Below are positions 39,835-64,000 of a DNA stretch of 64,000 nucleotides, in pieces; the stretch's first letter is position 1, and each line of letters starts with the position of its first letter. The position numbers and the translations under genes are program-made. This DNA comes from Planctomycetota bacterium. Lineage in GTDB: Bacteria; Planctomycetota; Phycisphaerae; Phycisphaerales; SM1A02. The notes under the pieces were generated by a model that worked only from the letters and a program-made list of their open reading frames with translations, was not told where the DNA came from and searched no databases. The stretch covers positions 248,001 through 312,000 of the forward strand of contig JAIOPG010000006.1 of the NCBI GenBank assembly GCA_021414025.1. Reading direction: 5' to 3'.

Positions 39835-40188
39835 TCAACTTCCGCGGTAGGTCGAATAGCCGAAGGGGCTCAGCAGCAGCGGCACATGGTGGTGCCGGGC
39901 CGCGTCGGTCACGCGAAATTCGATCGCGACCGTTGGGAAAAAGGTCTCGATGTTCTTCTCGGCGAACCACGCGCCGGTGGCGAAGGTCATCCGGTAGATC
40001 CCAGCGTTGAGCTTGCCGCCGCTGAGGAAGTTGCGCACGCGCCCATCGTCGTCGGTGCGTGCCGATTGAAGGTCGGCCCAGGTCTCGCCCTTGAGGATCT
40101 GGCAGTGCACCAGGACGCCCGCCGCGGGCAGCCCGCTGGCGGTGTTCAAGACATGCGTGGAGAGTCCGTGCATCGCGGCCTGGGTCAC
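39835..40188 (-). CDS. hiuH: 5-hydroxyisourate hydrolase (transthyretin-like)
   Basis: 117 aa; hydrolyses 5-hydroxyisourate, the urate oxidase product. N-terminal LSTHVLNTASGLPAAG holds one active-site His, RTDDDGR the Arg, HHHVPLLLSPFGYSTYRGS the last His and the family-defining C-terminal YRGS. GTG at 40188 lies six bases after TAGCCT, supporting it over the ATG at 40173. Divergent from the malate synthase-allantoicase fusion, with which it shares a 74-nt control region. Urate oxidase and OHCU decarboxylase are not in the window. Confidence 0.93.
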   Translation of the reverse strand: MTQAAMHGLSTHVLNTASGLPAAGVLVHCQILKGETWADLQSARTDDDGRVRNFLSGGKLNAGIYRMTFATGAWFAEKNIETFFPTVAIEFRVTDAARHHHVPLLLSPFGYSTYRGS

Positions 40189-40262: not shown

Positions 40263-43200
40263 GTGAGCGGCCGCAGCGACAACGAATCATCCGGGATTCC
40301 TCAGTACCGCGACTTCATCTCGGCTCGCCTGATCGAGCATCTCGCGCCGCACATGAAGCCGGTGGAGGGAGTTCCCGATCTGCGGCAGGTGGGAACCACC
40401 GGCGGCCTGGAAAATCCGCAATCGCTGCAGTTTCTGTGCGAGCTCTACGAGCAGGTCAGGGGTGAGCTGGGCGCCGTGCTGCGGCAGCGCGGCATCGATC
40501 GCGACTTCATCGACCAGCGGACGCGAGCCTGCTTCGAGCTCAACCGCAGGCTGGGAATCGATTTTCGTGACTCGGACTATCACACGCTCCTGGGCCAGGA
40601 GGATGGCCAGGGGCGCATCGTGGCCGGGCCGAGGAACAATCTCTATTGCCGTGCGGGCGGCGGCGCGGCGATCGCGGAGATTCCGGAGTTCCTGCGCGGC
40701 CACCATGTCACGCTCTTCGGTCCGCCGGACGACGCCAAGCTCTCCATCAACGCGATGAATGCCTTCCACCGCAGGCTGGAGGGGGAGCCCGCGATCGTCG
40801 AGGAATTGCTCAGGAGTTTCACGGGCTCCGCGAAGTGGGGGGCCGACGACGAGGATTCCAAGACGCCGCTGCGCCGCGACCTTGTCCGCGCCGGGGAAAA
40901 TCTCACCGGATGCCTGAAGGGAAGCATCTCATACAAGGATGATCGCACCGGCAAGAACTATGCGCTGGAGCCAGAGCATCGGTCGCTGCCGATCAAGCGC
41001 TTCCCCGGATTGGCGCTGCCCTGCCCCTTCCTGTTTCACAATGGCAATCCACTGCCGCTGCATCTCTACGACTTCGCGCTGCATCTCTTCGCCAACTGGA
41101 GCGACCCAAAGGCGCTGGTCTTCTATGTGCCCAAGCTGGAGAACGAGGAGGAGGCCGCCTACATCCGGCACATGCTGGAGCAGGCGGAGCGGCTGATCCA
41201 GCGGCGGCATCCCGAGTACAAGCCGGGAACCATCCGGCTGATGATCGTGCTGGAGAATCCCCGCGCCGTCTTCCGCGTGAACGAGATCATGGACGCGTTG
41301 CATCCCTACTTCGCCGGCGCCTCGCTGGGCTGGCACGACTACCTCGCCTCCACGGCGCGGCTCATGAAGGAGGACGCCAACTACCGGATTCCGGTGAAGG
41401 CCGATCCGAACATCGTCATCAAGCACATCAAGGCGTCCCACGATCTGCTGGCCGAGGTCGTCGGCTCGCGCGGCGGCATCAAGGTGGGGGGGATGTACGG
41501 CGTGCTGCCCTCCGACAACGACCTCACGAGCGATTCGTTTCAGGTTGCGATCCGCGGCTTCATCAAGGATGTCGTGACGCAGATGAAGCGGAACCTCTCA
41601 GGATTCTGGGTCGCCCATCCGGATTTCGTGCGGCTGGGCCTGGCCCTGGTCGAGGCGTGGACGAAGTCGACGCCCGCGGATCTCTCGCCGATCGACAGCC
41701 TGGTGAAGTCGCTTCTGCTGCCCAAGCATCACGAAGAAATGCTCAAGTTCATCCATGGGCCGGACGTGCTCGGGCTCGATCCTGAGGATCCGCTTTATCC
41801 GCGGGCCCTGCTGGTGGCGGAGATGAAGGCCTCGGATTTCGTGGCCAACAATGATCCCGGCGAGATCCGCTACAACATTTTTCAGTCGCTGCAGTATGTG
41901 ACGGACTGGCTCTGCGGCAATGGATGCGTGGCGCTGCCGGCGACGATCGACGGCGTTCCAGTGCGGGTGATGGACGACCTGGCCACTGCCGAACGCTCGC
42001 GCTGGGAGGTCTGGCACGAGCTGCATCATGGGCGATTCGCCCTGGAGGATTTCGTTCGCATCGCCCACGAGGAGATGCGCTTCATCCGCAAGGACCTCTC
42101 CGACAGCCGCAAAATCGTGCAGGTGAAGTGGAATGAGCGCACCCAGAAGTGGTACCCGGTGGCCATGAACCTGATGCTGCTGCTGATGTCCGCCGAGACG
42201 CCAGTCGAGTTCGCCACCGAGCTGCTGCTGCCCTTCACCTTGGATTCCATCCGCGACCAGGATGATCCCTGGCATGCCGCGGCCGGGATCGATCCGGAGA
42301 AGTACGCGCTGTCCGAGTTTGTCGCCCGCTGCCACGCCTTTTTCTCGATGTGCGGCTGCGGCGCGTTCGCGACGGCCATGGCACGGCATCCGGTGACGGA
42401 CCTGCGCGAGGCCGAGCGATTGATCATGGGATTTGATCAGGCGCAGATCAACGAGGCCGCAGGCTTTCACGGCGACATCGGCGAGGGCAGGGCGACGCTC
42501 GACGCCACGGCGGCGAAGGAGCAAGCGGGGGTTTCCGCTGGTGACGCGAATATCCTGGAGCAATTGCGGCTTCTGGGGCGGCAGTACCGGGAAAAGTTCA
42601 AGTTCAAGTTCCTGATTTCGGCGGCGGGAAAATCCGGGGCGGAATTGCTGGCGGCGCTTCAAGGCCGACTCGACAATTCGGCCGAGAAGGAATTGCACAA
42701 CGCGCGTGAGGCCTTGTGGCAGATCACTCGGAAGCGACTGCTCGCCCAGCCGATCGACGACGCCCATCACCAGATCCAGGAGGCGCTTAAGAGCCATGAA
42801 GTGCGCGGGGCGGCGATCTGCCTCATATCGCCGAGCGGCCATCTTCAGGCGCTCGAATGCGGCGAACGCTCGGCGGGAGAGCCGGTCACGCCGCACACGC
42901 TCTTTGAAATTGCCTCGCTGAGCAAGAGCGTCGCCGCGAGTTTCGCCATCGAGCATTTCCGCAAGGCCGGCATTCCGCTGACGACGCCGGTCAATCCGCT
43001 GCTTGCCCAGACCAAGTCGCGCTTCCGCATTCGCTCGCTCGATCCGCGCCATCTGGAGCGGGGGGACCAGGTCACCCTGGCGCATCTGATGAACCACCAG
43101 GCGCTGAACCTGCACTACGTCAACGGCATCCCGGCAAACCAGCCGATGCCGGCGTTGACCGACCTGCTTTCAGGCAACGAGAAGTTCGGCTATGAGCCGG

Positions 43201-45041
43201 TCGGTGCGGTCCACGAGCCGGGAAGCAAGTTTCAATATTCGGGCGGCGGTTTCCTGGTGCTGGAGCACCTGATCCAGAGTCGCGAGGGCAAGAGCATTCC
43301 GTCAATCACCGATCCCTTCCTGGCGGAACTGGGGATGGTCGGCGCGACTTTCGAGCAGACCACGCTGCCCATGCGCGAATACGCCACGGGCTACACCGAT
43401 GAGGGACGCGCCATCGAGGGCGCGCGCAAGATGTTCCCGGCCTTCGCCGCGGGCGCGATGGCCACCGTGTCCGATGTCGGAAAATTCCTCCAGGCGCTGA
43501 CGCTTGCATTCCATGATCTTCGCGGGGCCGGGCCGATCTCCCATGACACCGCGGTCCAGATGCTCTTCGGCTCGGACAAGGGCAGCCGGGAGTTCATGGG
43601 GTGCGACATGGGCCTGGGCATCTTCACCGCCGAGGCCGGTCCGAACCGGCTCTGCATTCACCAAGGCGCCAACGACGGCTTCCGCGCCCTGTTCATCCAC
43701 TGCTTCGCGGGCCCGGACCGCGGCAAGGGCTTCGTCATCGCCTGCAACGGCGAGCACAACGGCGTGCTCTTCATCTCGGAGGCGGCGCAGATCCTGCTGC
43801 GGCAGTTCAACCTTCACGGCGTCGACGTTGAGCGGTTCAAGTCGGATGTCGCTGTGGACCATCTTCCCCAGGCGGAACGGGTGAACGCCGGATATCGAGA
43901 GCTGATCTTCTCTGCGTTCCAGCCCGACCTGCCGGAGGCCATCGAGGAGCATGGACCGCGCGATCCGCTGGCGGAGTGCAACCTCGCCGTCGGCGCCAGC
44001 GTGATCGAGGCTTCCAATCAGCGCTTCGCCCGGGCCGAGAATCTGCTCTCGCCTTTCCAACCCGCATTTGATCCCCAACTCTTCGGCAGGCAGGGCAAGA
44101 TCATGGACAGCTGGGAGAGCGTCCGTCACAACCGCAGCGAGTGCGACTGGATGATCTTCGAGATGAAGTCGCCCGCAGCGATCGACTGCGCCGCGGTGTC
44201 CACCCAGTTCCACCAGGGCAACCACGCCCAGGCCATTCGCATCGAGGGATGGGACGCGGTGGTGCAGCAGTGGCGCGAGATCGTGCCGCGCACGCCGCTG
44301 TCAGGGCACACTTTTCATGCAATGGATGCCTCTTCGAAGGGATTTCCATTTCAGCGCATCAGGGTCTCCATCTTTCCCGATGGCGGCGTGACCCGGCTTG
44401 CTCTGTACGGATCGAACCTGCCCGCCGACGAGAGGAAAAAAGTGTTCGCGCGGTCGCAGCAGGCCTATCCCGCCTTCGACGCCCAGACCCGCAAGCCGCT
44501 GACGCCGAAGTACGTCGCCGCGGACGCACGGATCCAGAAGAATCTGGAACGGCATGCGCCCGGAGAGATGGACCTGGCCTGCAGCGCCTTCGGCGGCCGG
44601 ATCATCTCCGCCACCAACGAGCACTATGGCCCCGCGGCGCAGGTGATCTCGCCCTATCCGCCGCTGAACATGTTCGACGGCCTCGAGTCCGCGCGAAGCC
44701 GCGAGCCCGGCCACTCCGAGGAGATCGTCATCGAGCTCGGCCGGGCGGCGGTCGTCGGCCGCGTTGAGGTCGATTTCGCCTACTTCGTGAACAACAACCC
44801 CCTCGAACTCGCGGTGCACGGGCTGTGCGGCGGGGAATGGGTCGAGCTGGTCGCACGGACCGGCGTCAAGGCCTATGCAGGCAACGCCGTTCGCTTCGAG
44901 GTCGCCACCGCAGGACTGTGCCGCCAGATCCGCGTGACCGCCTATCCCGACGGCGGAATGAACCGGGTGCGCGTCTTTGCGGCGAAGGGACTAGAGTGCG
45001 CCGATCGCGGCGCAGCGGGCGCCCTCCGATCGGCGCCCTGA
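40263..45041 (+). CDS. Trifunctional fusion: malate synthase - serine hydrolase (class C beta-lactamase fold) - allantoicase
   Basis: 1592 aa in one uninterrupted frame. Residues 1 to about 620: malate synthase A-type TIM barrel, with the Mg ligands E341 (RVNEIM) and D359 (GWHDYL) 18 apart as in E. coli AceB, GGMYGVLP, and the catalytic Asp D572 in MDDLATAERSR. About 830-1200: serine beta-lactamase/esterase fold with nucleophile S885 in SLSK (K888), Y992-S-G and H1133-Q-G in place of KTG. About 1235-1590: allantoicase, two repeats (ENLLSP..GKIMDSWES and ATNEHYGPAAQVISPYPPLN). Predicted chain: allantoate to ureidoglycolate, then glyoxylate plus acetyl-CoA to malate; the middle domain's reaction is unknown. 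Flanked by hiuH and guanine deaminase. Confidence 0.88.
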   Translation: MSGRSDNESSGIPQYRDFISARLIEHLAPHMKPVEGVPDLRQVGTTGGLENPQSLQFLCELYEQVRGELGAVLRQRGIDRDFIDQRTRACFELNRRLGIDFRDSDYHTLLGQEDGQGRIVAGPRNNLYCRAGGGAAIAEIPEFLRGHHVTLFGPPDDAKLSINAMNAFHRRLEGEPAIVEELLRSFTGSAKWGADDEDSKTPLRRDLVRAGENLTGCLKGSISYKDDRTGKNYALEPEHRSLPIKRFPGLALPCPFLFHNGNPLPLHLYDFALHLFANWSDPKALVFYVPKLENEEEAAYIRHMLEQAERLIQRRHPEYKPGTIRLMIVLENPRAVFRVNEIMDALHPYFAGASLGWHDYLASTARLMKEDANYRIPVKADPNIVIKHIKASHDLLAEVVGSRGGIKVGGMYGVLPSDNDLTSDSFQVAIRGFIKDVVTQMKRNLSGFWVAHPDFVRLGLALVEAWTKSTPADLSPIDSLVKSLLLPKHHEEMLKFIHGPDVLGLDPEDPLYPRALLVAEMKASDFVANNDPGEIRYNIFQSLQYVTDWLCGNGCVALPATIDGVPVRVMDDLATAERSRWEVWHELHHGRFALEDFVRIAHEEMRFIRKDLSDSRKIVQVKWNERTQKWYPVAMNLMLLLMSAETPVEFATELLLPFTLDSIRDQDDPWHAAAGIDPEKYALSEFVARCHAFFSMCGCGAFATAMARHPVTDLREAERLIMGFDQAQINEAAGFHGDIGEGRATLDATAAKEQAGVSAGDANILEQLRLLGRQYREKFKFKFLISAAGKSGAELLAALQGRLDNSAEKELHNAREALWQITRKRLLAQPIDDAHHQIQEALKSHEVRGAAICLISPSGHLQALECGERSAGEPVTPHTLFEIASLSKSVAASFAIEHFRKAGIPLTTPVNPLLAQTKSRFRIRSLDPRHLERGDQVTLAHLMNHQALNLHYVNGIPANQPMPALTDLLSGNEKFGYEPVGAVHEPGSKFQYSGGGFLVLEHLIQSREGKSIPSITDPFLAELGMVGATFEQTTLPMREYATGYTDEGRAIEGARKMFPAFAAGAMATVSDVGKFLQALTLAFHDLRGAGPISHDTAVQMLFGSDKGSREFMGCDMGLGIFTAEAGPNRLCIHQGANDGFRALFIHCFAGPDRGKGFVIACNGEHNGVLFISEAAQILLRQFNLHGVDVERFKSDVAVDHLPQAERVNAGYRELIFSAFQPDLPEAIEEHGPRDPLAECNLAVGASVIEASNQRFARAENLLSPFQPAFDPQLFGRQGKIMDSWESVRHNRSECDWMIFEMKSPAAIDCAAVSTQFHQGNHAQAIRIEGWDAVVQQWREIVPRTPLSGHTFHAMDASSKGFPFQRIRVSIFPDGGVTRLALYGSNLPADERKKVFARSQQAYPAFDAQTRKPLTPKYVAADARIQKNLERHAPGEMDLACSAFGGRIISATNEHYGPAAQVISPYPPLNMFDGLESARSREPGHSEEIVIELGRAAVVGRVEVDFAYFVNNNPLELAVHGLCGGEWVELVARTGVKAYAGNAVRFEVATAGLCRQIRVTAYPDGGMNRVRVFAAKGLECADRGAAGALRSAP

Positions 45042-45056
45042 ACGGAAGCAGCAACC

Positions 45057-45536
45057 ATGAATCAAGAGCAACACCAACAATTCATGCGCCGGGCGATCGC
45101 CCTCGCAAGGCAGAACATCTCCGAGCGCAACGGCGGACCCTTCGGCGCCGTGGTCGTGAAGGATGGCAAGATCATCGGCGAGGGATGGAACAAGGTCACT
45201 GAGCGCAACGACCCAACGGCCCACGCCGAGATGGAGGCCATCCGCGCCGCCTGCGCTGCTCTGCGCACCTTCGACCTCTCCGGCGCCATCATCTACACCA
45301 GCTGCGAGCCCTGTCCCATGTGCCTCTCCGCGATCTACTGGGCGCGGCTGGACAAGATCTACTTCGCCAACACCCGGCAGGACGCCGCCGACATCCAGTT
45401 CGACGACGACTTCATCTACCAGGAGATCGCCAAGGACCATGACCAGCGCGGCATTCACATGACGCAGATCCTGCGCGACGAGGCCCTGCCGATCTTCACC
45501 GACTGGCAGAAGAAGAGCGCCAAGATCCGCTATTGA
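45057..45536 (+). CDS. guaD: Guanine deaminase (cytidine-deaminase fold)
   Basis: 159 aa, GuaD-type: zinc His/catalytic Glu in HAEME and the two Cys in CEPCPMC; the N-terminal FMRRAIALARQNI and NGGPFGAVVVKDG fit, as does the C-terminal swapped segment ending KIRY. Deaminates guanine to xanthine, feeding the purine breakdown continued by hiuH and the allantoicase fusion. Starts 15 nt after the fusion stop; GGAAG precedes the ATG. TAGAGT at 44992-44997, inside the previous gene, might be an extra promoter. tRNA adenosine deaminase (TadA) is excluded by the C-terminus. Confidence 0.9.
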   Translation: MNQEQHQQFMRRAIALARQNISERNGGPFGAVVVKDGKIIGEGWNKVTERNDPTAHAEMEAIRAACAALRTFDLSGAIIYTSCEPCPMCLSAIYWARLDKIYFANTRQDAADIQFDDDFIYQEIAKDHDQRGIHMTQILRDEALPIFTDWQKKSAKIRY

Positions 45537-45545
45537 GCCGGCCGG

Positions 45546-47279
45546 TCAGCGGCGGATCGATGCCGCGTGCTCGCTCCACATCGATCGAAACGCCTCCTCG
45601 AGGTGGCGCGTGAAGCGGGGGACATCCATCAGCGGCGACGCGATCATCCGGTCGCGCATTCCAGAGCGGAGCGCGGCCAGTCGCGGCGCGTCGTTGGCCA
45701 GCGCGACAGCGAGGCCGACATAGTCGTCCCCGTCCTTGGCGACCAGTTCCTGAAGTCCGAGGTTGCCCATCTGGCTCACTCCCACGCGCCCCGCGTGGTT
45801 GCAGCCGGCGAGCACCACCACGGGCACGCCCATCCAGAGCGCGTCGAGGGTGGTGGTGGTCCCGTTGTAGGGGAAGGGGTCCAGGCCGATGTCGACCGCG
45901 TTGTAGCGCTGCATGTGCTCGAACTGCCCGAGATCCTTGCCGAGAATGTCCAATCGCTCGGGCGAAACACTGTGGGCGGCGAATTGACCGCGGAGCAGCT
46001 CCGTCATGTACGCCGAATCGAGGCCCTGGTATTTCAGGATCAACCGCGAGCCCGCGACCTGGCCGAGAATCTTCGACCACACGGCGACGACCTCCGGCGT
46101 GATCTTCATCGCATTGTTGAAGGAACCGAATGTGATGTGGCCGGTCTTGACCGAGGGCGGCGGCGCCACGGGCGGGCAGGGGGTCGGCGCCTGGAAGCAG
46201 GAAAAACATTCCGGCAATCGCACCAGCTTCTCGGTGTGAAAGACCTCGCTCGCTCCAACCGGATCGGCCAGCGCATCGGTGATGCGATAGTCCATGGACG
46301 CGAGCCCGGTGGTGTTGGGATAGCCGAGCCAGGTCACCTGCACCGGCGCCGGCATTCGCGCGAAGACCGTCAGGCGGTTGAGCGGCGTGTGTCCCGCCAG
46401 ATCGACCAGGATGTCGATGGCATCAGCCTGGATCCGGCCGGCGACCTCGTCGTCGGAAAGGTTCGCGACCAGTCGCCAGTGATCCGCCTTGCTTCGGATC
46501 CGCTGGGTGACATCGTCGGCGATCAGGTTGTTGGAGTAGCAGAAGACTTCGAACCGCTTCTTGTCGTGAGCGGCGAGCACGGGCTCGATGAAATGCGCCA
46601 CCGAGTGCTGCTTGAAGTCCGGCGAGAGGTAGCCGATGCGAAGCCTGCGATCGTTCGCCTCGCCGCCCGCGGGAGCAGACCGCGGCGCGAGCCGGATCGA
46701 AGGCGATTCGAAGAGCTCCCCGAACTTCCTGTGCGCCGCAAAGATTGCCGCGAGGTCAGGCCGCGGCAGGTAGTTCAAGGCGCAGAGATAGAGGTCGCGC
46801 AGAATCGACGAGTCGGGGCAGGCCGCCATGCCGCGCTCGAACTGCTCGAGCGCCTCCGTCAGTTTGCCCTGCTGATGCAGTGCGTTGCCCAGGTTGCAGT
46901 GCGCCTGCGGCTGACGCGGATCGATCTCCAGCGCGCGCCGGTAGGCCTCGATCGCCTGGGGCAGCTCCCCCAGCGTCTGATGGACCTTGCCCAGGTTGAA
47001 GATGAAGTTCACCTCGCGGGGATGGCGCTCCACGGCCTTGCGCATGAGGGTCACGGCCTCCGAGTTCCGGCCGGTCTGATGCCTCAGCACGCCCAGATAG
47101 GAGAGGGCGCGGCCGTTGCCCGGCTCGACGTCGAGGACGCGCACGTAGAGATGCTCCGCGATTTTAAGCTCGCCCCGCGCATGGTGCTGCTGCGCCATCG
47201 CGATTGCCTCCGCCACGGTCACGCGCTGCGACGGCCCGTCGCCGATCCGGACGAGGCCTGGAGGACGAGGCTTGGGCAT
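45546..47279 (-). CDS. SPINDLY/OGT-like TPR glycosyltransferase (array copy, no SEC-C)
   Basis: 577 aa. Starts directly with a short polar segment and about four to five TPRs (residues 22-190), then the GT41 catalytic domain: RIGYLSPDFKQHSVAHF, GHTPLNRL, GYPNTTG, RLILKY and GLDPFPYNGTTTTLDALW near residue 466, with LDALW instead of the CDALW of most copies. TAGGAT lies seven bases before the ATG. It is the leftmost array member, separated from the rest by the divergent methyltransferase-OGT fusion. Convergent with guaD. Confidence 0.88.
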   Translation of the reverse strand: MPKPRPPGLVRIGDGPSQRVTVAEAIAMAQQHHARGELKIAEHLYVRVLDVEPGNGRALSYLGVLRHQTGRNSEAVTLMRKAVERHPREVNFIFNLGKVHQTLGELPQAIEAYRRALEIDPRQPQAHCNLGNALHQQGKLTEALEQFERGMAACPDSSILRDLYLCALNYLPRPDLAAIFAAHRKFGELFESPSIRLAPRSAPAGGEANDRRLRIGYLSPDFKQHSVAHFIEPVLAAHDKKRFEVFCYSNNLIADDVTQRIRSKADHWRLVANLSDDEVAGRIQADAIDILVDLAGHTPLNRLTVFARMPAPVQVTWLGYPNTTGLASMDYRITDALADPVGASEVFHTEKLVRLPECFSCFQAPTPCPPVAPPPSVKTGHITFGSFNNAMKITPEVVAVWSKILGQVAGSRLILKYQGLDSAYMTELLRGQFAAHSVSPERLDILGKDLGQFEHMQRYNAVDIGLDPFPYNGTTTTLDALWMGVPVVVLAGCNHAGRVGVSQMGNLGLQELVAKDGDDYVGLAVALANDAPRLAALRSGMRDRMIASPLMDVPRFTRHLEEAFRSMWSEHAASIRR

Positions 47280-47286
47280 GGATCGA

Positions 47287-47292
47287 ATCCTA
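47287..47292 (-). promoter_or_regulatory. -10-like TAGGAT, 7 nt before OGT start
   Basis: TAGGAT, seven bases, ATG at 47279; no Shine-Dalgarno. Confidence 0.45.
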
Positions 47293-47337
47293 TCGCAATG
47301 AACGGCGGGTTCCTGCCAGGCGCATTGAAATCTGACC

Positions 47338-47343
47338 TAAGAT
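47338..47343 (+). promoter_or_regulatory. -10-like TAAGAT, 8 nt before the methyltransferase-OGT fusion
   Basis: TAAGAT, eight bases, ATG at 47352; no Shine-Dalgarno. Confidence 0.45.
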
Positions 47344-47351
47344 CCCTCTCC

Positions 47352-49286
47352 ATGACCACGGGCACGCCGGGCAGCGCAGCGACGAATCCACTCATCCGAT
47401 TGCACATCGGCGGGCGCGAGGCGCGCGAGGGGTGGACGCTGATGAATGCGCAGCCGGGACCGGGCGTGGATGTGGTGGGCAATGGCCGCGACCTCTCCAT
47501 GTTCGCCACCGGCACGGTGGTCGAGATCTACGCGCCCTACGTCTATCAGCGGTTTGGATTCCGGCGCGAGCTGGCGGCGGCCTTGAAGGAGGCCTTTCGC
47601 GTGCTGATTCCCGGCGGCGTGCTGCGGGTCTCCGTGCCGAATCTCGAAACCATTGCCAAGCTCTTCTTGGAGCCGAAGGTTCCCTACGAGGACAAATTCC
47701 ATCTGCTCACGCTGGTCTACGGCGAGCAGGCCAACGAGTCCGACGCGCATCGGACCGCATTTTCCCACATGTTTCTGAGCGACTGGCTTTCCAATGGGGG
47801 CTTCAAGGACATCGCCGCGGTGGAATCATTCGGCCTCTTTCCCGACCATTCCAATCTCAAGTACGGGCCGGTTCCCCTGAGCCTGAACATGATCGCCACC
47901 AAGAAGTCCAACGCGATGGAGCTGAACAACGAGGCCAACAAGCGGCACACGCAGGGGCAGATCCAGGAGGCTTTGGACCTCTACGAGTTGGCGATGCTGC
48001 TCGCCCCCGACAAGGCCATGATCCACAGCAACTTTCTCATGGTCCTGAACTACATGCCCAGCCCGGACATGGCGGCGATCTTCGCGGCGCACCGGGCATT
48101 CGGCGAGCTTCATGAAAGCGGAAGATTGAAGCCCGCGGTGATCGGGCCCGGCGCTCCGCGAGGCGGCGCCTCGACCGGCGGAGAAGCGAAAATTCGCGTC
48201 GGCTATGTCTCAAGCGATTTCCGCGAGCACGCCGTGGCGCACTTCATCGAGCCCGTGCTTGCGGCGCATGACCGGAGCACGTTTGAGCTCTTCGCCTACT
48301 ACCACCACACCGCCGTCGACGACGTGACCCGCCGCCTCCAGACGCTGGTGCCCAACTGGCGAAGCCTGGTTGGAAAATCCGACGACGAGATCGCCAAGAT
48401 GGTGCGCGACGATCACATCGACATCCTGGTGGATCTCGCCGGCCATGCCGGACTGAATCGCCTTCCCGTGTTCGCCCGCAAGCCGGCGCCGGTGCAGGTG
48501 ACCTGGCTGGGCTATCCCAACACCACCGGCCTGACCGCGATGGACTACCGCATCACCGATGCCTTCGCGGATCCGCCGGGCATGACCGAGGCGTTCCACA
48601 CCGAGAAGCTGGTGCGCCTGCCCGGGAGTTTCTCCTGCTACCGGGGGCCGGAGAAGTGTCCGGAGGTTGGACCGCTGCCCAGGCTCAAGAGCGGACAGAT
48701 CACCTTTGGTTCCTTCAACATCTTCGCCAAGATCACGCCCGAAGTCATCGCGGTGTGGGCGCGGATCCTCAAGCGGCTGCCCACCGCCAAACTTTTTTTG
48801 AAGTACCGCGATCTGGACACGCCCACCATGACGCAGTCGATCCTGGGCAACTTCAGGCGCCACGGCGTCGATGCTGCGCAGCTGCGGATCATGGGCGACG
48901 ATCCCTCGCACTTCACGCACATGGAGCGCTACAACTCCGTCGACATCGGGCTGGATCCCTTTCCTTACAACGGCACCACCACCACCTGCGATGCGCTCTG
49001 GATGGGCGTGCCCGTGGTCACCCTTGCGGGCGTCAGCCATGTGGGACGCGTTGGCGTAAGTCAATTGAGCAACATCGGCCTGCCGGAACTGATCGCCAAG
49101 AGCAAGGACGACTATGTGGAGATCGCGGTGCGGCTTGCGGGCGACGTGCCGCGACTGACGGAGCTCCGCGCCGGCCTGCGTCCGCGCATGCTCGCCTCGC
49201 CCCTCTCGGACATTCCACGGTTCACGAAAAATCTTGAGGCGGCCTACCTTGAAATGTGGAAGGCCTATCGCGGCAAGGCTTCCTGA
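47352..49286 (+). CDS. Methyltransferase-like domain fused to OGT-like glycosyltransferase
   Basis: 644 aa. Residues about 15-195 form a SAM-methyltransferase-like domain of the type with RLHIGG..REGWTLMNAQ, DVVGNGRDLSMF, and FRVLIPGGVLRVSVPNLE; the SAM-binding loop is short, so activity is uncertain. A single TPR-like unit (205-240) remains, then a complete GT41 domain (RVGYVSSDFREHAVAHF near 281, GHAGLNRL, RLKSGQITFGSFN, GLDPFPYNGTTTTCDALW). The other array copies have four to five TPRs here instead. The ATG at 47352 follows TAAGAT; the frame runs upstream only as an antisense shadow. 22-nt convergent overlap with the next copy. Confidence 0.85.
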   Translation: MTTGTPGSAATNPLIRLHIGGREAREGWTLMNAQPGPGVDVVGNGRDLSMFATGTVVEIYAPYVYQRFGFRRELAAALKEAFRVLIPGGVLRVSVPNLETIAKLFLEPKVPYEDKFHLLTLVYGEQANESDAHRTAFSHMFLSDWLSNGGFKDIAAVESFGLFPDHSNLKYGPVPLSLNMIATKKSNAMELNNEANKRHTQGQIQEALDLYELAMLLAPDKAMIHSNFLMVLNYMPSPDMAAIFAAHRAFGELHESGRLKPAVIGPGAPRGGASTGGEAKIRVGYVSSDFREHAVAHFIEPVLAAHDRSTFELFAYYHHTAVDDVTRRLQTLVPNWRSLVGKSDDEIAKMVRDDHIDILVDLAGHAGLNRLPVFARKPAPVQVTWLGYPNTTGLTAMDYRITDAFADPPGMTEAFHTEKLVRLPGSFSCYRGPEKCPEVGPLPRLKSGQITFGSFNIFAKITPEVIAVWARILKRLPTAKLFLKYRDLDTPTMTQSILGNFRRHGVDAAQLRIMGDDPSHFTHMERYNSVDIGLDPFPYNGTTTTCDALWMGVPVVTLAGVSHVGRVGVSQLSNIGLPELIAKSKDDYVEIAVRLAGDVPRLTELRAGLRPRMLASPLSDIPRFTKNLEAAYLEMWKAYRGKAS

Positions 49287-51241
49287 TGCTCCCGCACCAT
49301 CGTCTGGTAGGCCACTTCGAGATGGCGCGTGAAGCGCGTCACATCCATCAATGGTGAGGCCTGCATCCGGGCGCGAAGTCCCGCTCGCAGCGACTCGAGC
49401 TTTTTGAGATTGCCCGCCAGGTCCGCGGCAATCCTTATGTAATCCTCCTCATCCTTGGCGATCAGTTCGGAGAGCCCGAGATTGCTGAGCTGACTCACCC
49501 CCACGCGCCCCACATGGCTGACGCCGGCGAGGGTGACAACGGGCACGCCCATCCAGAGCGCATCGCAGGTGGTGGTGGTGCCGTTGTAGGGAAAGGGATC
49601 CAGCCCGATGTCGACGGAGTTGTAGCGCTCCATGTGCGCCGCGTGCGAGGCGTCGAGACCGAGGATCGCGACCCGCTTTGGATCCACCCCATGCTCCTTG
49701 AAGATGGAGCGGATCAGGGTGCGCATGGCGTCTGAGTCCAGCCCTTGGTACTTCAGCAGCAGCGTCGCGGTCGGCACGCGCTTCAGCAGTCGCGACCAGG
49801 TCGCCAGCACCTCCGGCGTCATCTTGGAGAGCATGTTGAAGGAGCCGAAGGTGATGTGACCGTTGCGCAGCGCGGGCAGCGGACCCACGTCGGGACTCTG
49901 CGCCGGAGCCTTGAAGCAGGAGAAGCAATCGGGCAGGCGCACCAGCTTCTCAGTGTGGAACGCCTCCGTCATGCCCGGCGGATCGGCGAAGGCATCGGTG
50001 ATGCGGTAGTCCATGGCATTCAAGCCGGTGGTGTTGGGATAGCCCAGCCAGGTCACCTGCACCGGCGCCGGCTTGCGCGCGAACACCGGCAGCCGGTTCA
50101 GACCGGAATGACCGGCAAGGTCCACCAGGATGTCGATCCGATCGTCGCGCACCATCCGGGCGACTTCCTCGTCGCTCTTGTCATGGATGGGTCGCCAATT
50201 CGGCACCAGCGCCTGCAGGCGGCGCGTGACATCGTCCACCAGCGTGTGGTGGTAGTAGGCGAAGAGCTCGAACTTGCTCCGGTCATGCGCCGCAAGCACC
50301 GGCTCGATGAAGTGCGCCACCGAGTGTTGCCGGAAATCGGGCGAGAGGTAGCCGACGCGGATTTTCCGTGCCATGCCGAGTTCGCGGCCCGCGTCGCTGC
50401 CCGAACGCACCGGTGGTGTGAGCGAAGCGTCGGGGGGCATCGCGGAGGAGGCGATCGGCGATGAGCGCGGCGCCCGCTTCTCGTAGCCCGCGCCGATCTT
50501 GCGATGCTCCTCGAAGATCTCCGCCAGGTTGGGCCGGGCCAAAAAGTTGAGGACATAGAGATAGTTGCTGTGGATGAGCGACTCCTCCGGGCTCACCTCC
50601 AGCGCCATCTTGAAGCACTCGATCGCATCGTGAAGCTTGCCCTGCCGGTGCAGGACGGATCCCAGGTTGGTCAGCGCAGTGGTGGACTTGTGGCGCGGCT
50701 GAAGGGCGATGGACTTTCGGAAGCTCTCCGCGGCCTCCTCCAATTGGTTGAGATTCATCAGGGCCACGCCGATGTTGTAGAAGGATTCGCCCGAGGGACG
50801 GAGCTTGTGGGCCTGGCGGAACGCGGCCAGTGCCTCCGGCATCTGCCGCCGCTCGTCGTGGACCTTGGCCAGATTGTCGTGGTAGTGGAAGACCTCCGGG
50901 TGGCGCGCGGCGGTGAGCTTCATCAGCTCCAGGCCTTCGTCGCTGCGGCCGGTCTGGTGCAGCAGCACGCCGTAGTAGAAGCGCGCCTGGTCGAACTCCG
51001 GGTCGGACTCCAGGATCAGGCGGAAGAGCTCGCCCGCGGTGCGGAGATCGCCGGCCATGTGAAATCTCTGGGCGATGGCCGTGGCATCGGCGAGCGTGAA
51101 TTGTTGGGCCGGTCGGCCGTCCATGGCCGGAAAATCCACGACCGGCCGCCGGCCCTTGGGCACCTCGGGCCGCAGGCAGCAGTTCTTGGCTTTGCGGCCG
51201 CTGCCGCAGGGGCAGGGATCGTTCCGGTTGACCGCGCTCAC
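49265..51241 (-). CDS. SPINDLY/OGT-like TPR glycosyltransferase with SEC-C (array copy)
   Basis: 658 aa, the longest OGT-like copy. SEC-C motif at residues 5-21 (VNRNDPCPCGSGRKAKNCC region), five or so TPRs from about 45 to 235, a Ser/Pro-rich hinge with two charged clusters (residues 260-300) absent from the others, then the GT41 domain with RVGYLSPDFRQHSVAHF, GHSGLNRL and GLDPFPYNGTTTTCDALW. GTG start at 51241 forms a GTGA overlap with the upstream copy. Catalytic part is most like that of the methyltransferase fusion next door. Confidence 0.88.
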   Translation of the reverse strand: MSAVNRNDPCPCGSGRKAKNCCLRPEVPKGRRPVVDFPAMDGRPAQQFTLADATAIAQRFHMAGDLRTAGELFRLILESDPEFDQARFYYGVLLHQTGRSDEGLELMKLTAARHPEVFHYHDNLAKVHDERRQMPEALAAFRQAHKLRPSGESFYNIGVALMNLNQLEEAAESFRKSIALQPRHKSTTALTNLGSVLHRQGKLHDAIECFKMALEVSPEESLIHSNYLYVLNFLARPNLAEIFEEHRKIGAGYEKRAPRSSPIASSAMPPDASLTPPVRSGSDAGRELGMARKIRVGYLSPDFRQHSVAHFIEPVLAAHDRSKFELFAYYHHTLVDDVTRRLQALVPNWRPIHDKSDEEVARMVRDDRIDILVDLAGHSGLNRLPVFARKPAPVQVTWLGYPNTTGLNAMDYRITDAFADPPGMTEAFHTEKLVRLPDCFSCFKAPAQSPDVGPLPALRNGHITFGSFNMLSKMTPEVLATWSRLLKRVPTATLLLKYQGLDSDAMRTLIRSIFKEHGVDPKRVAILGLDASHAAHMERYNSVDIGLDPFPYNGTTTTCDALWMGVPVVTLAGVSHVGRVGVSQLSNLGLSELIAKDEEDYIRIAADLAGNLKKLESLRAGLRARMQASPLMDVTRFTRHLEVAYQTMVREHQEALPR

Positions 51242-53046
51242 GTCGCCACCGCGCCCAGATGGTTCTTCCACATCGTCTGGTAGGCCTGCTCCAGATTCCG
51301 CGTGAAGCGCGGGATGTCCATGAGCGGAGAGGTCCGCAGCCGCTCGCGCAGCGAGGCGCGCAGGGCCGCGAGCTTCGGCAGGTCCCCTGCAAGGCGCGCC
51401 GCGATGTCGACGTATTCATCGAGGTCCTTGGCGATCATCTCCGGCAGACCGAGGTTGCTCATCTGGCTCACGCCGACGCGGCTCACGTGGTTGCGCCCGG
51501 CAAGCGTGACCACCGGCACGCCCATCCACAGGGAATCGCAGGTCGTGGTGGTGCCGTTGTAGGGAAAGGGATCGAGCCCGATGTCGATCCGGTTGTAGCA
51601 GTCGAAGTGCTCCATCGGCGAGATGTTCGGGCTCAGCAGCTCGATTTGTTCGGGAGTGGCGCCGCACTTGCACAGCGCCTCCATGGTGAACTTCTTCAGG
51701 CTCGGATTGTCCAGGCTGCGGTTCTTCAGCACCAGCCGCGAGCCGGGAACGCGCTTGAGGATCGCGATCCAGACCTTCATGACTTCGGGGGTGATCTTGG
51801 CGAAGTTGTTGAAGGAGCCGAAGGTGACGCGGCCATTCTTGAGTGCGGGCAGCGCACCGACATCGGGGCTCTGCGCCGGCGCCTTGAAGCAGGAGAAGCA
51901 CTCGGGAAGGCGCAGCAGCTTCTCAGTGTGCAGCGCGTCGGCCTCGCCGGGCGGATCGGCGAAGGCGTCCGTGAGGCGGTAGTCCATGGTCGGCAAGCCG
52001 GTGGTGTTGGGGTAGCCGATCCATGTCGCCTGCACCGGCGCCGGCTTGCGCAGGAAAATCATCAGCCGGTTCAGCGCGGTATGGCCCGCGAGGTCGACCA
52101 GGATGTCGATGCGATCGTGCTGGATCATCTTCGCCGCGTCTTCGTCGGGGAGCGTGTCGATCATGCGCCAATTGGGCACCGAGGCCTGCATGCGCTTGGT
52201 GGCCTCGTCGACGCGCGGATTGTTGGAGTAGCAGAAGATCTCGAACTTCTCCCGGTCGTGCGCGGCCAGGATCGGCTCGATGAATTGGCCGACGGCGTGG
52301 CCGTAGAAGTCGGGCGAGACGTAGCCGACGCGAAGTTTGGAACCGGCTTCGGCACGGGCGCCGGCCGCCAGCGGATTCACGTAGAGCCTGGGCACGAAGC
52401 TGGCGAACTTGTCGCCGAACTTTTTGTGCTCCTGGAAGATCATCGGCAGGTCGGGATGGCCGAGGTAGTTCAGCGTCAGCAGGTAGTTGCTGTGCACGTA
52501 GGCGTTCTCGATGTCCATCGAGATCGCCGTGCGGTAGTTCTCCAGGGCCTCGTCCAGTTCGCCTTTGAGCGACAGCGCGATGCCGAGGTTGTTGCGGGGA
52601 ATGGCCTGGGCATTGGGCGGCAGGCGCTTGATCGCCTCGCGGGCGAATTCAATCGCCTCGTCCAGCTGCCCGGCGTCGGCCAGTTGCTTGGCCAGCGAGC
52701 AGTGGGTGTGGCCGCTGGGCTCCAGTTCCACCGTTCTGCGGTAGCAGGCGATCGCTTCGGGATAGTTGTCGATCGACTCATAAATGAGTCCGAGGTTGTA
52801 GTGGTATTGGTAGACGTCGGGGTACTTTGCCACCGCCTGCTTCAGGAAAACGAAGGCTTCCGTGATCTTGTTGGTCTGGCAGAGCAGCATCCCCAGATAA
52901 AACATCGCTTCGCCGTGGTTGGGGTCGGTCTCGAGAATTTTTCGGTACTGACTCTCCGCCACGTCGTAGTTGCCCTGCGCGTGCAGGCGATGCGCCTCGG
53001 CGACCGCCGCGGCAAGGTTTGAATCGGGTGGGGGAGTGGAGTTCAT
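51238..53046 (-). CDS. SPINDLY/OGT-like TPR glycosyltransferase (array copy, no SEC-C)
   Basis: 602 aa. TPRs begin almost at the N-terminus (AVAEAHRLHAQGNYDVAESQ) and number five, residues 10-200. In the catalytic domain the usual DFRQHSVAHF is DFYGHAVGQF, keeping the first His but changing the second to Gln; later motifs are normal (GHTALNRL, GYPNTTG, RLVLKN, GLDPFPYNGTTTTCDSLW). ATG at 53046 overlaps the stop of the preceding copy (ATGA). Confidence 0.88.
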   Translation of the reverse strand: MNSTPPPDSNLAAAVAEAHRLHAQGNYDVAESQYRKILETDPNHGEAMFYLGMLLCQTNKITEAFVFLKQAVAKYPDVYQYHYNLGLIYESIDNYPEAIACYRRTVELEPSGHTHCSLAKQLADAGQLDEAIEFAREAIKRLPPNAQAIPRNNLGIALSLKGELDEALENYRTAISMDIENAYVHSNYLLTLNYLGHPDLPMIFQEHKKFGDKFASFVPRLYVNPLAAGARAEAGSKLRVGYVSPDFYGHAVGQFIEPILAAHDREKFEIFCYSNNPRVDEATKRMQASVPNWRMIDTLPDEDAAKMIQHDRIDILVDLAGHTALNRLMIFLRKPAPVQATWIGYPNTTGLPTMDYRLTDAFADPPGEADALHTEKLLRLPECFSCFKAPAQSPDVGALPALKNGRVTFGSFNNFAKITPEVMKVWIAILKRVPGSRLVLKNRSLDNPSLKKFTMEALCKCGATPEQIELLSPNISPMEHFDCYNRIDIGLDPFPYNGTTTTCDSLWMGVPVVTLAGRNHVSRVGVSQMSNLGLPEMIAKDLDEYVDIAARLAGDLPKLAALRASLRERLRTSPLMDIPRFTRNLEQAYQTMWKNHLGAVAT

Positions 53047-54959
53047 GAGGCTTTGGAACCGGTGTGCATCTTCCACATTTCCTGGTAGGCCGTCTCGAGA
53101 TTCCGGGTGAAGCGGGGGACGTCCATGAGCGGGGATGCGATCATGCGCTGGCGCAGGCCGGCGCGCAATGCGGTCAGTCGCGGCACATCCGCAGCCAGAC
53201 GTGCGGCGATCTCGACATAGTCGTTCGGGTCCTTGCCGATCAGCTCCGGCAGACCGAGGTTGCTCATCTGGCTCACGCCCACACGGCCGACGTGACTGAC
53301 GCCGGCGAGCACCACCATGGGCACGCCCATCCACAGCGCCTCAAAGGTCGTGGTGGTGCCGTTGTAGGGAAAGGGATCGAGCCCGATGTCGATCGTGTTG
53401 TATTGCTCCAGATGCGACGCATGCGGCCCGTCCTGGCCGCGCATTTCGATCGAGCCGGCCGCGACGCCATGCTTGGCGAAGATCGAAAGGATGAAGTTCT
53501 GGACTCCCGGCGCCGACATGCTCTTGTTCTTGAGGACCAGTCGGGAGCCGGGGACGCGCTTGAGGATCCTCGCCCACACCGCGATCACCTGCGGCGTGGT
53601 CTTGGCGAAATTGTTGAAGGAGCCGAAGGTCACATGTCCGTTCTTCAGCGCGGGCAACGGACCCACGTCGGGGCTCGCCGCCTGCGGCTGGAAGCAGGAG
53701 AAGCATTCCGGCATGCGCCAGAGTTTCTCGGTGTGGAGTTTGTCGGACTCGCCCGGCGGATCGGCGAAGCGGTCGGTGATCCGCCAGTCCATCGTGGTCA
53801 GGCCGGTGGTGTTGGGGTAGCCCAGCCAGGTCACCTGCACCGGCGCCGGCTTGAGGCCGAAGAGCAGCAGCCGTGAATTCTGGGTGTGTCCGGCCAGATC
53901 GACCAGCAGGTCGATGCCGTCGCGGCGGATGAGCTCGGCGACCTCCTCCTCCGACCGGTTGTGGATCAGCCGCCAGCTTGGGACAAGTCCCTTGATGCGC
54001 GTGGTGTAGTCGTCGACCTGCGCGTTGTTGGAGTAGCAGAAGACCTCGAACTTCTCCTTGTCGTGCGCCGCCAGAATCGGCTCGATGAAATAGGAGACCG
54101 AGTGCTGGCGAAAATCCGGCGAGACATAGCCGACGCGCAGCCGGCGCTTCGTGCCCGCGGCCCGGTCTTCCTGGACATCGCGCGGAGGCAGGGGGCGGTC
54201 GTAGAGCCTGCCGAACTGCCGGTGAGCTTCGAAGACTTTGGCAAGGTCCGGGTCGGCCAGGAAATTGAGCGTGTACAGGTAGTTGTTCCGCATGACCGAG
54301 TCGTCCGGCGTGATCGCCAGACCGGCCTCGATACTCTCGATCGCCTCTTTCAGCTTTCCTTGCTGCTGCAGGACGATGGCCAGATTGTTGTAGAGGTTGG
54401 CGCTCTGCTCGCGCGGCTGCCGCTGGATGGCCTGACGGCAGCATTCGGCGGCTTCGTCCAGCTCGCCGATCTGCATCAGCATGGTCCCCAGATGGTCCAG
54501 GGCCACGGGCCGCGGATCGATCGCCACAGCGCGGCGGTAGGAGGCGATGGCCTCGCTCATGTTTCCACTTTCGAAGCAGAAGTAGCCAAAGTTGAATTGG
54601 TAGAGGAAAACCTTGGGATGCTTGAGCGTGGCCCGCTTCATCAGCTCAAAGGCCTGCTGGGCCCTTCCCATCTGGTGGTTGAGCACTCCGAGAAAGAAAA
54701 GCGCGTCGCCGTGGTCCGGGTCAACCGCCAGAATGAGTTTGTAAATCTTTTCAGCGCCCGCCGTGTCGCCGTGCTGCTGCCGATCCTGTGCGATCCGCAC
54801 GGCCTCCGAAAATGGAATCGGCTGCGACTGCAGACCGTCGGCCAGCGGCAGTGCGATCGTCCGCGCCTTGCCGGCGGATCCCCCGGGACCCTGGCAGCAG
54901 TTCTTGGCTTTCCGTCCGCTTCCGCAGGAACAGGGATCATTGCGACCGACGGTGCTCAT
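53043..54959 (-). CDS. SPINDLY/OGT-like TPR glycosyltransferase with SEC-C (array copy)
   Basis: 638 aa. SEC-C with one change (NDPCSCGSG). TPRs 45-240, including the subfamily marks DRQQHGDTAGAEKIY and ECCRQAIQRQPRE. Catalytic domain: RVGYVSPDFRQHSVSYF, GHTQNSRLLL, MDWRITDRF, RLVLKNKSM, GLDPFPYNGTTTTFEALW. Together with the copies at 55672 and 59381 it forms a close subgroup (TTTTFEALW, DRQQ). First gene of a three-gene coupled run reading left; its leader has a TATAGT box about 70 nt up and a GCCCTC/GAGGGC hairpin at 54985-55000. Confidence 0.88.
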   Translation of the reverse strand: MSTVGRNDPCSCGSGRKAKNCCQGPGGSAGKARTIALPLADGLQSQPIPFSEAVRIAQDRQQHGDTAGAEKIYKLILAVDPDHGDALFFLGVLNHQMGRAQQAFELMKRATLKHPKVFLYQFNFGYFCFESGNMSEAIASYRRAVAIDPRPVALDHLGTMLMQIGELDEAAECCRQAIQRQPREQSANLYNNLAIVLQQQGKLKEAIESIEAGLAITPDDSVMRNNYLYTLNFLADPDLAKVFEAHRQFGRLYDRPLPPRDVQEDRAAGTKRRLRVGYVSPDFRQHSVSYFIEPILAAHDKEKFEVFCYSNNAQVDDYTTRIKGLVPSWRLIHNRSEEEVAELIRRDGIDLLVDLAGHTQNSRLLLFGLKPAPVQVTWLGYPNTTGLTTMDWRITDRFADPPGESDKLHTEKLWRMPECFSCFQPQAASPDVGPLPALKNGHVTFGSFNNFAKTTPQVIAVWARILKRVPGSRLVLKNKSMSAPGVQNFILSIFAKHGVAAGSIEMRGQDGPHASHLEQYNTIDIGLDPFPYNGTTTTFEALWMGVPMVVLAGVSHVGRVGVSQMSNLGLPELIGKDPNDYVEIAARLAADVPRLTALRAGLRQRMIASPLMDVPRFTRNLETAYQEMWKMHTGSKAS

Positions 54960-55030
54960 GTCGTGAAAAGTCTCGTGGGAAACAGCCCTCGCCTGAGGGC
55001 CGTCGTGGTCAATCAGGACGCCGCGCCTCC

Positions 55031-55036
55031 ACTATA
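55031..55036 (-). promoter_or_regulatory. -10 box TATAGT for the 53043-54959 OGT run
   Basis: TATAGT about 72 nt before the ATG at 54959; divergent from the methyltransferase promoter. A 6-bp stem-loop lies in the leader. Confidence 0.4.
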
Positions 55037-55079
55037 TCCCACTCCCGCATCGCCAACCCTTCGCCCCGGCAAATCCATC

Positions 55080-55085
55080 TAAACT
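55080..55085 (+). promoter_or_regulatory. -10-like TAAACT, 10 nt before methyltransferase start
   Basis: TAAACT, ten bases, ATG at 55096; no AGGAGG-type site. Confidence 0.4.
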
Positions 55086-55095
55086 GGATCCGCCC

Positions 55096-55653
55096 ATGGA
55101 AGCCGCACGACCCGACCACGCCTCGTTCCGCAAGCCGATCCGATTGCATCTTGGCGGGCACGATGTGAAGGAGGGATGGACCCTGCTCAACGCGCAGCCG
55201 CGGCCCGGCGTCGACGTCGTCGGCAATTGCACGGATCTCTCCATGTTCGCCGATGGCTCGGTCGAGGAGGTCTACGCCTCGCACATCTACGAGCACCTTG
55301 GGTTTCGCCGCGAGCTGAGCACGGCGCTCAACGAGGCGGCGCGGGTGCTGCGGACGGGCGGCACGCTTCGGGTGGCCGTTCCCAATCTCGAAGTCCTGAT
55401 GTCGCTCTTCCTCGAGCCCGGCCTGGACCTCGACGCGCGCTTCTACGTGCACATGATGATCATGGGCGGCCAGTTGGACGAATACGACTTTCACAAGGCC
55501 GGATTTTCATTTCAGATTCTCGGCGAGCGGTTGCACGCGCATGGGTTCCGCAACATCCAGCAGGTGGAGAGCTTCGGACTCTTCGACGACACCTCCACGC
55601 GGAAGTTCGGCACGGTTCCCATCAGCCTGAATGTGGAATGCACCAAGGGTTGA
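55096..55653 (+). CDS. Stand-alone methyltransferase-like protein (paralogue of the OGT-fused domain)
   Basis: 185 aa, same domain as residues 15-195 of the fusion at 47352: RLHLGGHDVKEGWTLLNAQP, DVVGNCTDLSMF, YASHIYEHLGFRRELS, EAARVLRTGGTLRVAVPNLE, SFGLFDDTS. Keeps the EHL segment lost in the fusion copy. Methyltransferases of this type usually begin with a longer Gly-rich SAM loop; here it is LGG. It interrupts the array on the opposite strand, between two OGT runs, as the fusion gene does. A role in modifying glycans or the same targets is inferred from this pairing only. Confidence 0.78.
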   Translation: MEAARPDHASFRKPIRLHLGGHDVKEGWTLLNAQPRPGVDVVGNCTDLSMFADGSVEEVYASHIYEHLGFRRELSTALNEAARVLRTGGTLRVAVPNLEVLMSLFLEPGLDLDARFYVHMMIMGGQLDEYDFHKAGFSFQILGERLHAHGFRNIQQVESFGLFDDTSTRKFGTVPISLNVECTKG

Positions 55654-55671
55654 GGGCGGGGCGGGAGCCCG

Positions 55672-61297: not shown

Positions 61298-61330
61298 GGC
61301 CCAAGCTCCGCGCTCATGGCTTGCGCTCCG
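61291..61330. repeat. 20-bp tandem duplication at an OGT gene junction
   Basis: CGCTCATGGC + NNNNGCTCCG twice (61291-61310 and 61311-61330), 16 of 20 bases alike. Each unit contains a CAT, i.e. an ATG on the minus strand. The outer ATG overlaps the upstream stop in the usual ATGA way but opens only a 7-codon frame; the inner one starts the gene. Confidence 0.7.
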
Positions 61331-63104: not shown

Positions 63105-64000
63105 CGCCAGATCTCCGCGAGATGGGCTTCCCACATCGTTTGATAGGCGCGCTCAAGATTGCGGGTGAATCGTTCCGCGTCCATCAGCGGCGAATCCGCC
63201 AGCCGCCGGCGCAGACCCTTGCGCAGCGCCGCGAGTCTTGGCAAATCTCCCGCGAGCGTCGCAGCGATCTCGACGTACTCATCCCTGTTCTTGGCGACCA
63301 GCTCCGGCAGGCCAGTGTTCGTCAGCTGGCTCACGCCCACGCGCCCCGCGTGGCGGTCTCCGGCCAAAGTGATCACGGGCACGCCCATCCACAGGGCGTC
63401 GCACGTGGTGGTGGTGCCGTTGTAGGGAAAGGGATCCAGCGCGATGTCGATGGAGTTGTAGCGATCCAGATGCGCCCGCTGCGACTCGTCGGTGCCCATC
63501 AGCACCAGTCGCTCGCGGGCCACGCCATGCTTGGCGAACGCTTCGTGCACCACCGCCTGGATCGATTCCGAGTTCAGGCTGCGGTATTTCAAGGTCAGCC
63601 GCGACGCTGGAACGCGCTTGAGAATCCGCGCCCAGGTCTCGATGACATCGTGGTTCATCTTGATGAAGTAATTGAACGAGCCGAACATGATGGCGCCGGC
63701 CTTGAGCGCCGGCAGCGATCCGACTTCGGGGGAATCGGCGGGGGGCTGAAAGCACGAGAAGCAATCAGGCAGGCGCATCAATTGCTCGGTGTGGAGCGCG
63801 TCGGCCGCGCCGGGGGGATCGCACAGAGCGTCGGTGATGCGGTAGTCGATGTTGGTGAAGCCCGTCGTGTTGGGATAGCCGATCCAGGTCGCCTGCACCG
63901 GCGCCGGCTTGCGTGCGAACATCAGCAGGCTGTTCTGGTTGGTATGCCCCGCCAGGTCGACCAGCAGGTCGATGTCGTCATCGCGGATCTTCCGCGCGGC
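63101..64000 (-). CDS. SPINDLY/OGT-like glycosyltransferase, C-terminal part (cut by window edge)
   Basis: 299 codons visible, open to the right edge. Contains KIRDDDIDLLVDLAGH, PVQATWIGYPNTTGF, DYRITDALCDPPG, NYFIKMNHDVIETWARIL, LTLKYRSL, and ALDPFPYNGTTTTCDALW, then the normal C-terminal helix ending WEAHLAEIWR. Whether it begins with SEC-C or TPRs cannot be seen. The array therefore continues beyond the window. Confidence 0.88.
   Translation of the reverse strand, partial: AARKIRDDDIDLLVDLAGHTNQNSLLMFARKPAPVQATWIGYPNTTGFTNIDYRITDALCDPPGAADALHTEQLMRLPDCFSCFQPPADSPEVGSLPALKAGAIMFGSFNYFIKMNHDVIETWARILKRVPASRLTLKYRSLNSESIQAVVHEAFAKHGVARERLVLMGTDESQRAHLDRYNSIDIALDPFPYNGTTTTCDALWMGVPVITLAGDRHAGRVGVSQLTNTGLPELVAKNRDEYVEIAATLAGDLPRLAALRKGLRRRLADSPLMDAERFTRNLERAYQTMWEAHLAEIWR

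Follow-up and report, generated by a model that had tools for sequence, protein, structure and literature searches.

Two folds are known among allantoinases, that of the DAL type, which has a binuclear metal center, and that of PuuE, which belongs to the polysaccharide deacetylases. PuuE is an earlier re-invention of allantoinase on another fold (Ramazzina 2008, as cited in PMC9863593 and PMC6983136), and it has been described as metal-independent (PMC9863593). The NCBIfam model for PuuE (TIGR03212) carries the name uraD_N-term-dom, which casts the enzyme as the N-terminal partner of UraD, the OHCU decarboxylase. Consecutive steps of purine catabolism are also found joined in one protein, as in the allantoicase-ureidoglycolate hydrolase of Cryptococcus and the OHCU decarboxylase-HIU hydrolase of plants, and in yeast the malate synthase DAL7 disposes of the glyoxylate formed in allantoin catabolism (PMC3646786).

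The gene studied here lies in a 64,000-nucleotide stretch of a Planctomycetota genome, referred to as the window, and encodes a protein that resembles the Cryptococcus and plant fusions in bringing consecutive steps together. Those proteins have two functions from known families and contain no beta-lactamase-fold or malate synthase domain, whereas this one has both. The beta-lactamase-fold part occupies the same pathway slot as DAL-type allantoinase (AllB, TIGR03178), has the same operon partners and probably carries out the same reaction. However, the DAL enzyme has an unrelated fold, uses water activated by its metal center where our domain would use a serine nucleophile, and is not fused to malate synthase. 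PuuE differs as well, since it has a NodB fold and forms no serine acyl-enzyme.

The fusion protein and its genomic context

The fusion gene (40263-45041, + strand) begins with a GTG codon and encodes a single polypeptide of 1592 amino acids with four enzyme parts, which Pfam places in the order malate synthase, OHCU decarboxylase, PF00144 beta-lactamase and two-repeat allantoicase. The malate synthase domain spans residues 1-660 (40263-42242, +; MS_TIM-barrel at 252-472 and MS_C at 534-652). It is followed by the OHCU decarboxylase domain at approximately residues 676-828 (42288-42746, +; PF09349 at 714-826 with 1.3e-21, NF010372 with 3.7e-23) and by the serine beta-lactamase-fold domain, our proposed serine allantoinase, at residues 829-1200 (42747-43862, +; PF00144 at 838-1179 with 1.5e-27). 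The two allantoicase repeats cover residues 1236-1575 (43968-44987, +; PF03561 with 4.7e-54 in two stretches, the best at 1244-1384). Across 56 full-length orthologues, which come from Bdellovibrionota-type bacteria and Planctomycetota, residues R246, E331, D359 and D571/D572 of the malate synthase are unchanged, as are H736, E753 and Q754 of the OHCU decarboxylase. With their profile matches and invariant catalytic-type residues, the OHCU decarboxylase, allantoicase and malate synthase parts are all predicted enzymes.

Scanning one genome per species yielded 73 loci, which mostly encode full-length relatives with 41-69% identity; the genomes compared in this study are mostly MAGs. The hosts are relatives of Bacteriovorax, Bdellovibrio and Oligoflexus along with MAGs of the Planctomycetia and Phycisphaerales. 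Within a tree of the allantoicase domain, the fusions of planctomycetes group apart from those of Bdellovibrionota. By these comparisons the fusion is an old, conserved protein.

A gene for 5-hydroxyisourate hydrolase (HIUase) adjoins the fusion in divergent orientation (39838-40188, - strand; PF00576 with 2e-37) and is 79% identical to the HIUase in the same place at locus L004; an earlier note on this DNA had missed it. On the other side lies a guanine/cytidine-deaminase-type gene, likely a guanine deaminase (45057-45536, +; PF00383 with 2.4e-29), which adjoins or sits near the fusion in nine loci and stands beside XdhABC in several. Relatives have XdhA/B/C, a PuuD-type urate oxidase (PF06181), a soluble uricase (TIGR03383), HIUase (TIGR02962) and guanine deaminase as neighbors of the fusion, and in a congener of the window's organism (G544, locus L204) the uricase, fusion, guanine deaminase and XdhABC genes are consecutive. 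The genes around the fusion are predicted to supply the upstream steps: HIUase in the window, and in relatives XdhABC, guanine deaminase and either uricase or PuuD. Directly after the deaminase gene, the window contains a near-continuous array of nine OGT-like proteins (Glyco_transf_41; 45546-63134), eight of which have TPR repeats and lie on the - strand; in the ninth, on the + strand, no TPRs were detected.

The serine beta-lactamase-fold domain

The earlier note had read S885-x-x-K888, Y992 and an H-Q-G in the KTG position as the layout of class C-like serine hydrolases, in a domain placed between those for the flanking steps. Each residue is where the note put it, the PF00144 profile and the predicted fold agree with the layout, and the Pfam order of OHCU decarboxylase, beta-lactamase and allantoicase bears out the placement. 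Motif I, S885-L-S-K888 (42915-42926, +), contains the putative nucleophile and base and, like motif II, Y992-S-G994 (43236-43244, +), is present in 56 of 56 orthologues. Motif III, H1133-Q-G1135-A-N1137-D-G1139-F-R1141 (43659-43685, +), keeps its H, G, N, G and R in all 56, so that N1137 and R1141 are also without exception, and a signature loop, H945-Q-A-L-N-L-H951-Y952-V953-N-G955 (43095-43127, +), has invariant H945, H951, Y952 and G955. Because S885, K888, Y992, H1133 and G1135 occur in every one of the 56 full-length orthologues, the motif layout is not a product of chance.

Membership in the family is also indicated by a PF00144 score of 97.1 bits for the fusion protein, above the curated cut-off of 27. 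An AlphaFold model of residues 826-1200 has a mean pLDDT of 94.7 and, in a fold search, matches serine beta-lactamase-fold enzymes with Z of 31-36 across 306-344 residues, the nearest being IS11 esterase, a Pyrococcus PBP homologue, LACTB and D-amino-acid amidase. By sequence, the best solved structure is protein Flp (E 6e-14), which is not close. We take the fold search to identify the family rather than the substrate. A true class C beta-lactamase or cell-wall enzyme was considered and rejected, as the domain scores 38.6 bits against an NCBIfam cut-off of 415 and is internal to a multi-enzyme protein. The fusion has HQG and YSG where class C beta-lactamases have KTG and YxN. Profile searches of the fusion protein gave no match to DAL allantoinase (PF01979 or TIGR03178), to PuuE (TIGR03212, NodB/polysaccharide-deacetylase) or to ureidoglycolate lyase (PF04115).

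Among PF00144 amidases and esterases, we compared IS11 esterase (7spn), D-amino-acid amidase (2efu), R61 peptidase, LACTB and EstB. All share the fold, the SxxK, the Tyr and the HxG with our domain, but they are only ~15-24% identical to it, and they are stand-alone and often exported proteins, whereas our domain forms part of a multi-enzyme protein. To our knowledge, none of them acts on allantoin. Nor do we know of any solved or characterized beta-lactamase-fold member with allantoin as its substrate, the nearest folds being esterases, a D-amino-acid amidase and LACTB.

Allantoinase genes in genomes with and without the fusion

According to the earlier note, the locus contains no allantoinase or ureidoglycolate enzyme; this is true of the window and, for TIGR03178, PF04115 and PuuE, of the whole genome. 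Classical genes elsewhere in the same genome, which the note had named as evidence against its proposal, were looked for and did not occur. The best TIGR03178 match there, at 271.6 bits, falls below the cut-off of 357.85 and was rejected as a classical allantoinase, being a dihydropyrimidinase (TIGR02033, 541 bits). The note's further suggestion, that genomes with the fusion lack these genes, also held: DAL allantoinase above the curated cut-off, PuuE and PF04115 were each missing from 48 of 48 fusion genomes, the window's own included, with the PuuE search covering 51 genomes in all. Three relatives that have the malate synthase part only, or a split set, served as a contrast. Desulfogranum has PuuE, AllE, AllC and a racemase together in one operon, G049 has a DAL allantoinase, and Desulfosediminicola has AllE/AllC-type genes with no allantoinase above cut-off.

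We extended the comparison to 368 Bdellovibrionota genomes, of which 96 have an allantoicase. These fall into two clean bands. In 27 genomes the enzyme is standalone (best E ≤ 1e-46, open frames of 305-475 amino acids), and in 69 it is of the fusion type, with best E values of 2e-31 to 6e-17 and open frames that mostly span 1430-1645 amino acids, some ending at contig ends; G049 is a divergent member of the latter. With scoring limited to the four best candidates of each genome, DAL allantoinase (TIGR03178) was found in 24 of the 27 standalone genomes (2 of the 24 as fragments at contig ends) versus 1 of the 69, a swap with a Fisher p of 3e-18 that counts related genomes as independent and leaves shared ancestry uncorrected. 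The window organism's class shows DAL in 4/5 standalone and 0/3 fusion genomes, small numbers that alone give p = 0.14. The rule is imperfect, because no DAL allantoinase was found in the standalone-allantoicase genomes G144, G151, G152 and G610, whose beta-lactamase-fold domain is either degenerate or missing from the locus.

Operon content follows the same pattern. Classical operons contain PuuD or uricase, DAL allantoinase, allantoicase, OHCU decarboxylase, HIUase, DUF6986 and often Xdh, and fusion operons contain PuuD or uricase, HIUase, the four-part protein and Xdh. Set side by side, and assuming that DUF6986 and malate synthase are each other's counterparts, allantoinase is the sole classical enzyme unmatched in the fusion set and the beta-lactamase-fold domain is the sole unmatched part of the fusion. 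Since only these two lack a partner, the matching supports opening of the allantoin ring and disfavors hydrolysis of ureidoglycolate. Over ~100 genomes the domain stands in for the usual allantoinase, and it is probably a third, unrelated enzyme that opens the allantoin ring.

The earlier note had left both of these reactions in play; the first agrees with the swap, and the distribution of the lyase speaks against the second. If the domain acted on ureidoglycolate, as a hydrolase or lyase, and another enzyme opened allantoin, this would account for the missing PF04115 in all 48 fusion genomes and for the position of the domain next to allantoicase, which makes ureidoglycolate. Yet PF04115 is present in just 4 of the 368 Bdellovibrionota genomes and is missing from nearly all of both allantoicase types, the classical ones included, so its absence does not set the fusion apart, and for this reason we chose allantoinase over ureidoglycolate hydrolysis. 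Because the classical genomes lack the lyase and ureidoglycolate breaks down to glyoxylate and urea on its own (PMC3793230), there is nothing to replace at this step, which is presumably spontaneous or due to some other enzyme. Moreover, elimination of urea is not amide hydrolysis, and action on ureidoglycolate would leave 68 of the 69 fusion genomes without any substitute for allantoinase. We consider it unlikely.

Sub-threshold cyclic amidohydrolases occur in ~20 fusion genomes and might act on allantoin. The four that were identified are dihydropyrimidinase or dihydroorotase; besides that of the window's genome, the top matches in three others were also rejected, being dihydroorotase in G023 and G042 and dihydropyrimidinase in G011. 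Conceivably, a promiscuous dihydropyrimidinase-type enzyme opens allantoin and the beta-lactamase-fold domain is an active serine hydrolase of another ureide or amide, such as an N-carbamoyl compound, or of an ester, and the 541-bit dihydropyrimidinase of the window's genome, like those of some other fusion genomes, would fit such a division of labor. However, the best cyclic amidohydrolase match in most other fusion genomes is weak, below ~230 bits; most genomes without a full-length match of at least ~250 bits have only weak matches in the dihydroorotase range, and operon matching leaves the domain no slot except that of DAL. These points make the other-substrate explanation quite improbable.

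A sister lineage provides a further view of the domain. Three Bacteriovoracaceae genomes (G049, G151 and G152) encode a beta-lactamase-fold-allantoicase protein without the malate synthase and OHCU decarboxylase domains. In all three, HQG of motif III has become HHA (G1135A). Motifs I and II can be read in G151 and G152 only, because the draft assembly of G049 lacks the SxxK part of the protein, and both proteins that cover these sites have Y992F and an N or G in place of H951. Broken invariants number 7-9 of 42 in the beta-lactamase-fold domain versus 2 of 48 in the allantoicase. G049 also encodes a 617-amino-acid protein that joins DAL allantoinase to OHCU decarboxylase (L089 9877-11727), with the HIUase gene after it; together with the name of the PuuE model, this indicates that the same two steps have already been joined with other allantoinases. 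The sister lineage fits a beta-lactamase-fold domain made redundant. It is support and not proof, because the draft genomes of G151 and G152 yielded no DAL gene and because, in the allantoicase-domain tree, the degenerate clade is sister to the fusion clade and not nested inside it, a position that leaves loss after displacement unproven. Although this lineage keeps the domain with both the Tyr of motif II and the Gly of motif III replaced, a role without catalysis, as a scaffold or as part of a substrate channel, is the least credible explanation and very improbable, as the main family retains the catalytic-motif Ser, Lys, Tyr, His and Gly, needless for a scaffold, in 56/56 proteins.

A proposed route from OHCU to malate

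We consider the middle domain a likely allantoinase analogue with a serine beta-lactamase fold, acting between the OHCU decarboxylase and allantoicase steps. Substrate and mechanism are what we infer; the domain order, invariant residues, operon context and genome-level swap come from sequence analysis. The order of OHCU decarboxylase, beta-lactamase-fold domain and allantoicase in the protein is also the order of the pathway. The OHCU decarboxylase domain would be the source of (S)-allantoin within the same polypeptide, and the middle domain would open its hydantoin ring to give allantoate, which the allantoicase domain would convert to ureidoglycolate and urea. Ureidoglycolate would then yield glyoxylate, spontaneously or via some further activity, and in the final step the malate synthase domain would combine glyoxylate with acetyl-CoA to form malate, a disposal of glyoxylate like that by DAL7 in yeast. 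For the ring opening, we propose an attack by Ser885, activated by Lys888 and Tyr992, on the carbonyl at C4 of the cyclic amide. The amide nitrogen N3 would be the leaving group and stay tethered as a ureido group, and the diureidoacetyl-serine ester would then be hydrolyzed to allantoate, as in beta-lactam opening.

Recruitment of allantoinase from another fold is a known kind of event, for which the serine beta-lactamase fold would be the third case. We think it likely that this allantoinase evolved independently of the other two and is the first to use a covalent serine acyl-enzyme, within one polypeptide that leads from OHCU to malate. In a search of the open-licence literature, neither a beta-lactamase-fold allantoinase nor the four-part fusion turned up. 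If correct, the proposal would give one of the best-studied enzyme folds a new reaction and allantoinase a third independent origin, and it would complete a purine degradation that looks broken in Bdellovibrio/Bacteriovorax-type predators, their relatives and Planctomycetota. Annotation pipelines likely name the fusion after one of its parts (malate synthase, allantoicase or beta-lactamase) and list the pathway as incomplete. The proposal would also be a caution that metagenomic PF00144 matches are not all resistance genes.

Several related arrangements were seen in other genomes. In Desulfobulbales, the same malate synthase subfamily is standalone in allantoin operons (L075 7350-9419; L066 9983-12046; L069 9995-12103), and this subfamily therefore seems tied to ureide catabolism. 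These operons also contain an AllE-type ureidoglycine aminohydrolase and an AllC-type M20 peptidase, and that of L075 has PuuE and a hydantoin-racemase-type gene in addition. DUF6986 (PF22484), found in classical allantoin operons (L163 10716-12056; L170 11657-13036; L167 5480-6808; L201 4862-6328), has weak similarity to malate synthase and HpcH-HpaI TIM barrels and takes the place that the malate synthase domain has in fusion operons; it is a candidate glyoxylate-consuming enzyme. An aminotransferase of the alanine/aspartate-glyoxylate type, which adjoins allantoicase or malate synthase genes in several relatives (L070 12749-13867; L160 7126-8244; L167 4377-5480), is another possible outlet for glyoxylate. 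Finally, G368 encodes an 875-amino-acid protein in which a PuuD-type membrane urate oxidase is joined to a DAL allantoinase (L164 1338-3962).
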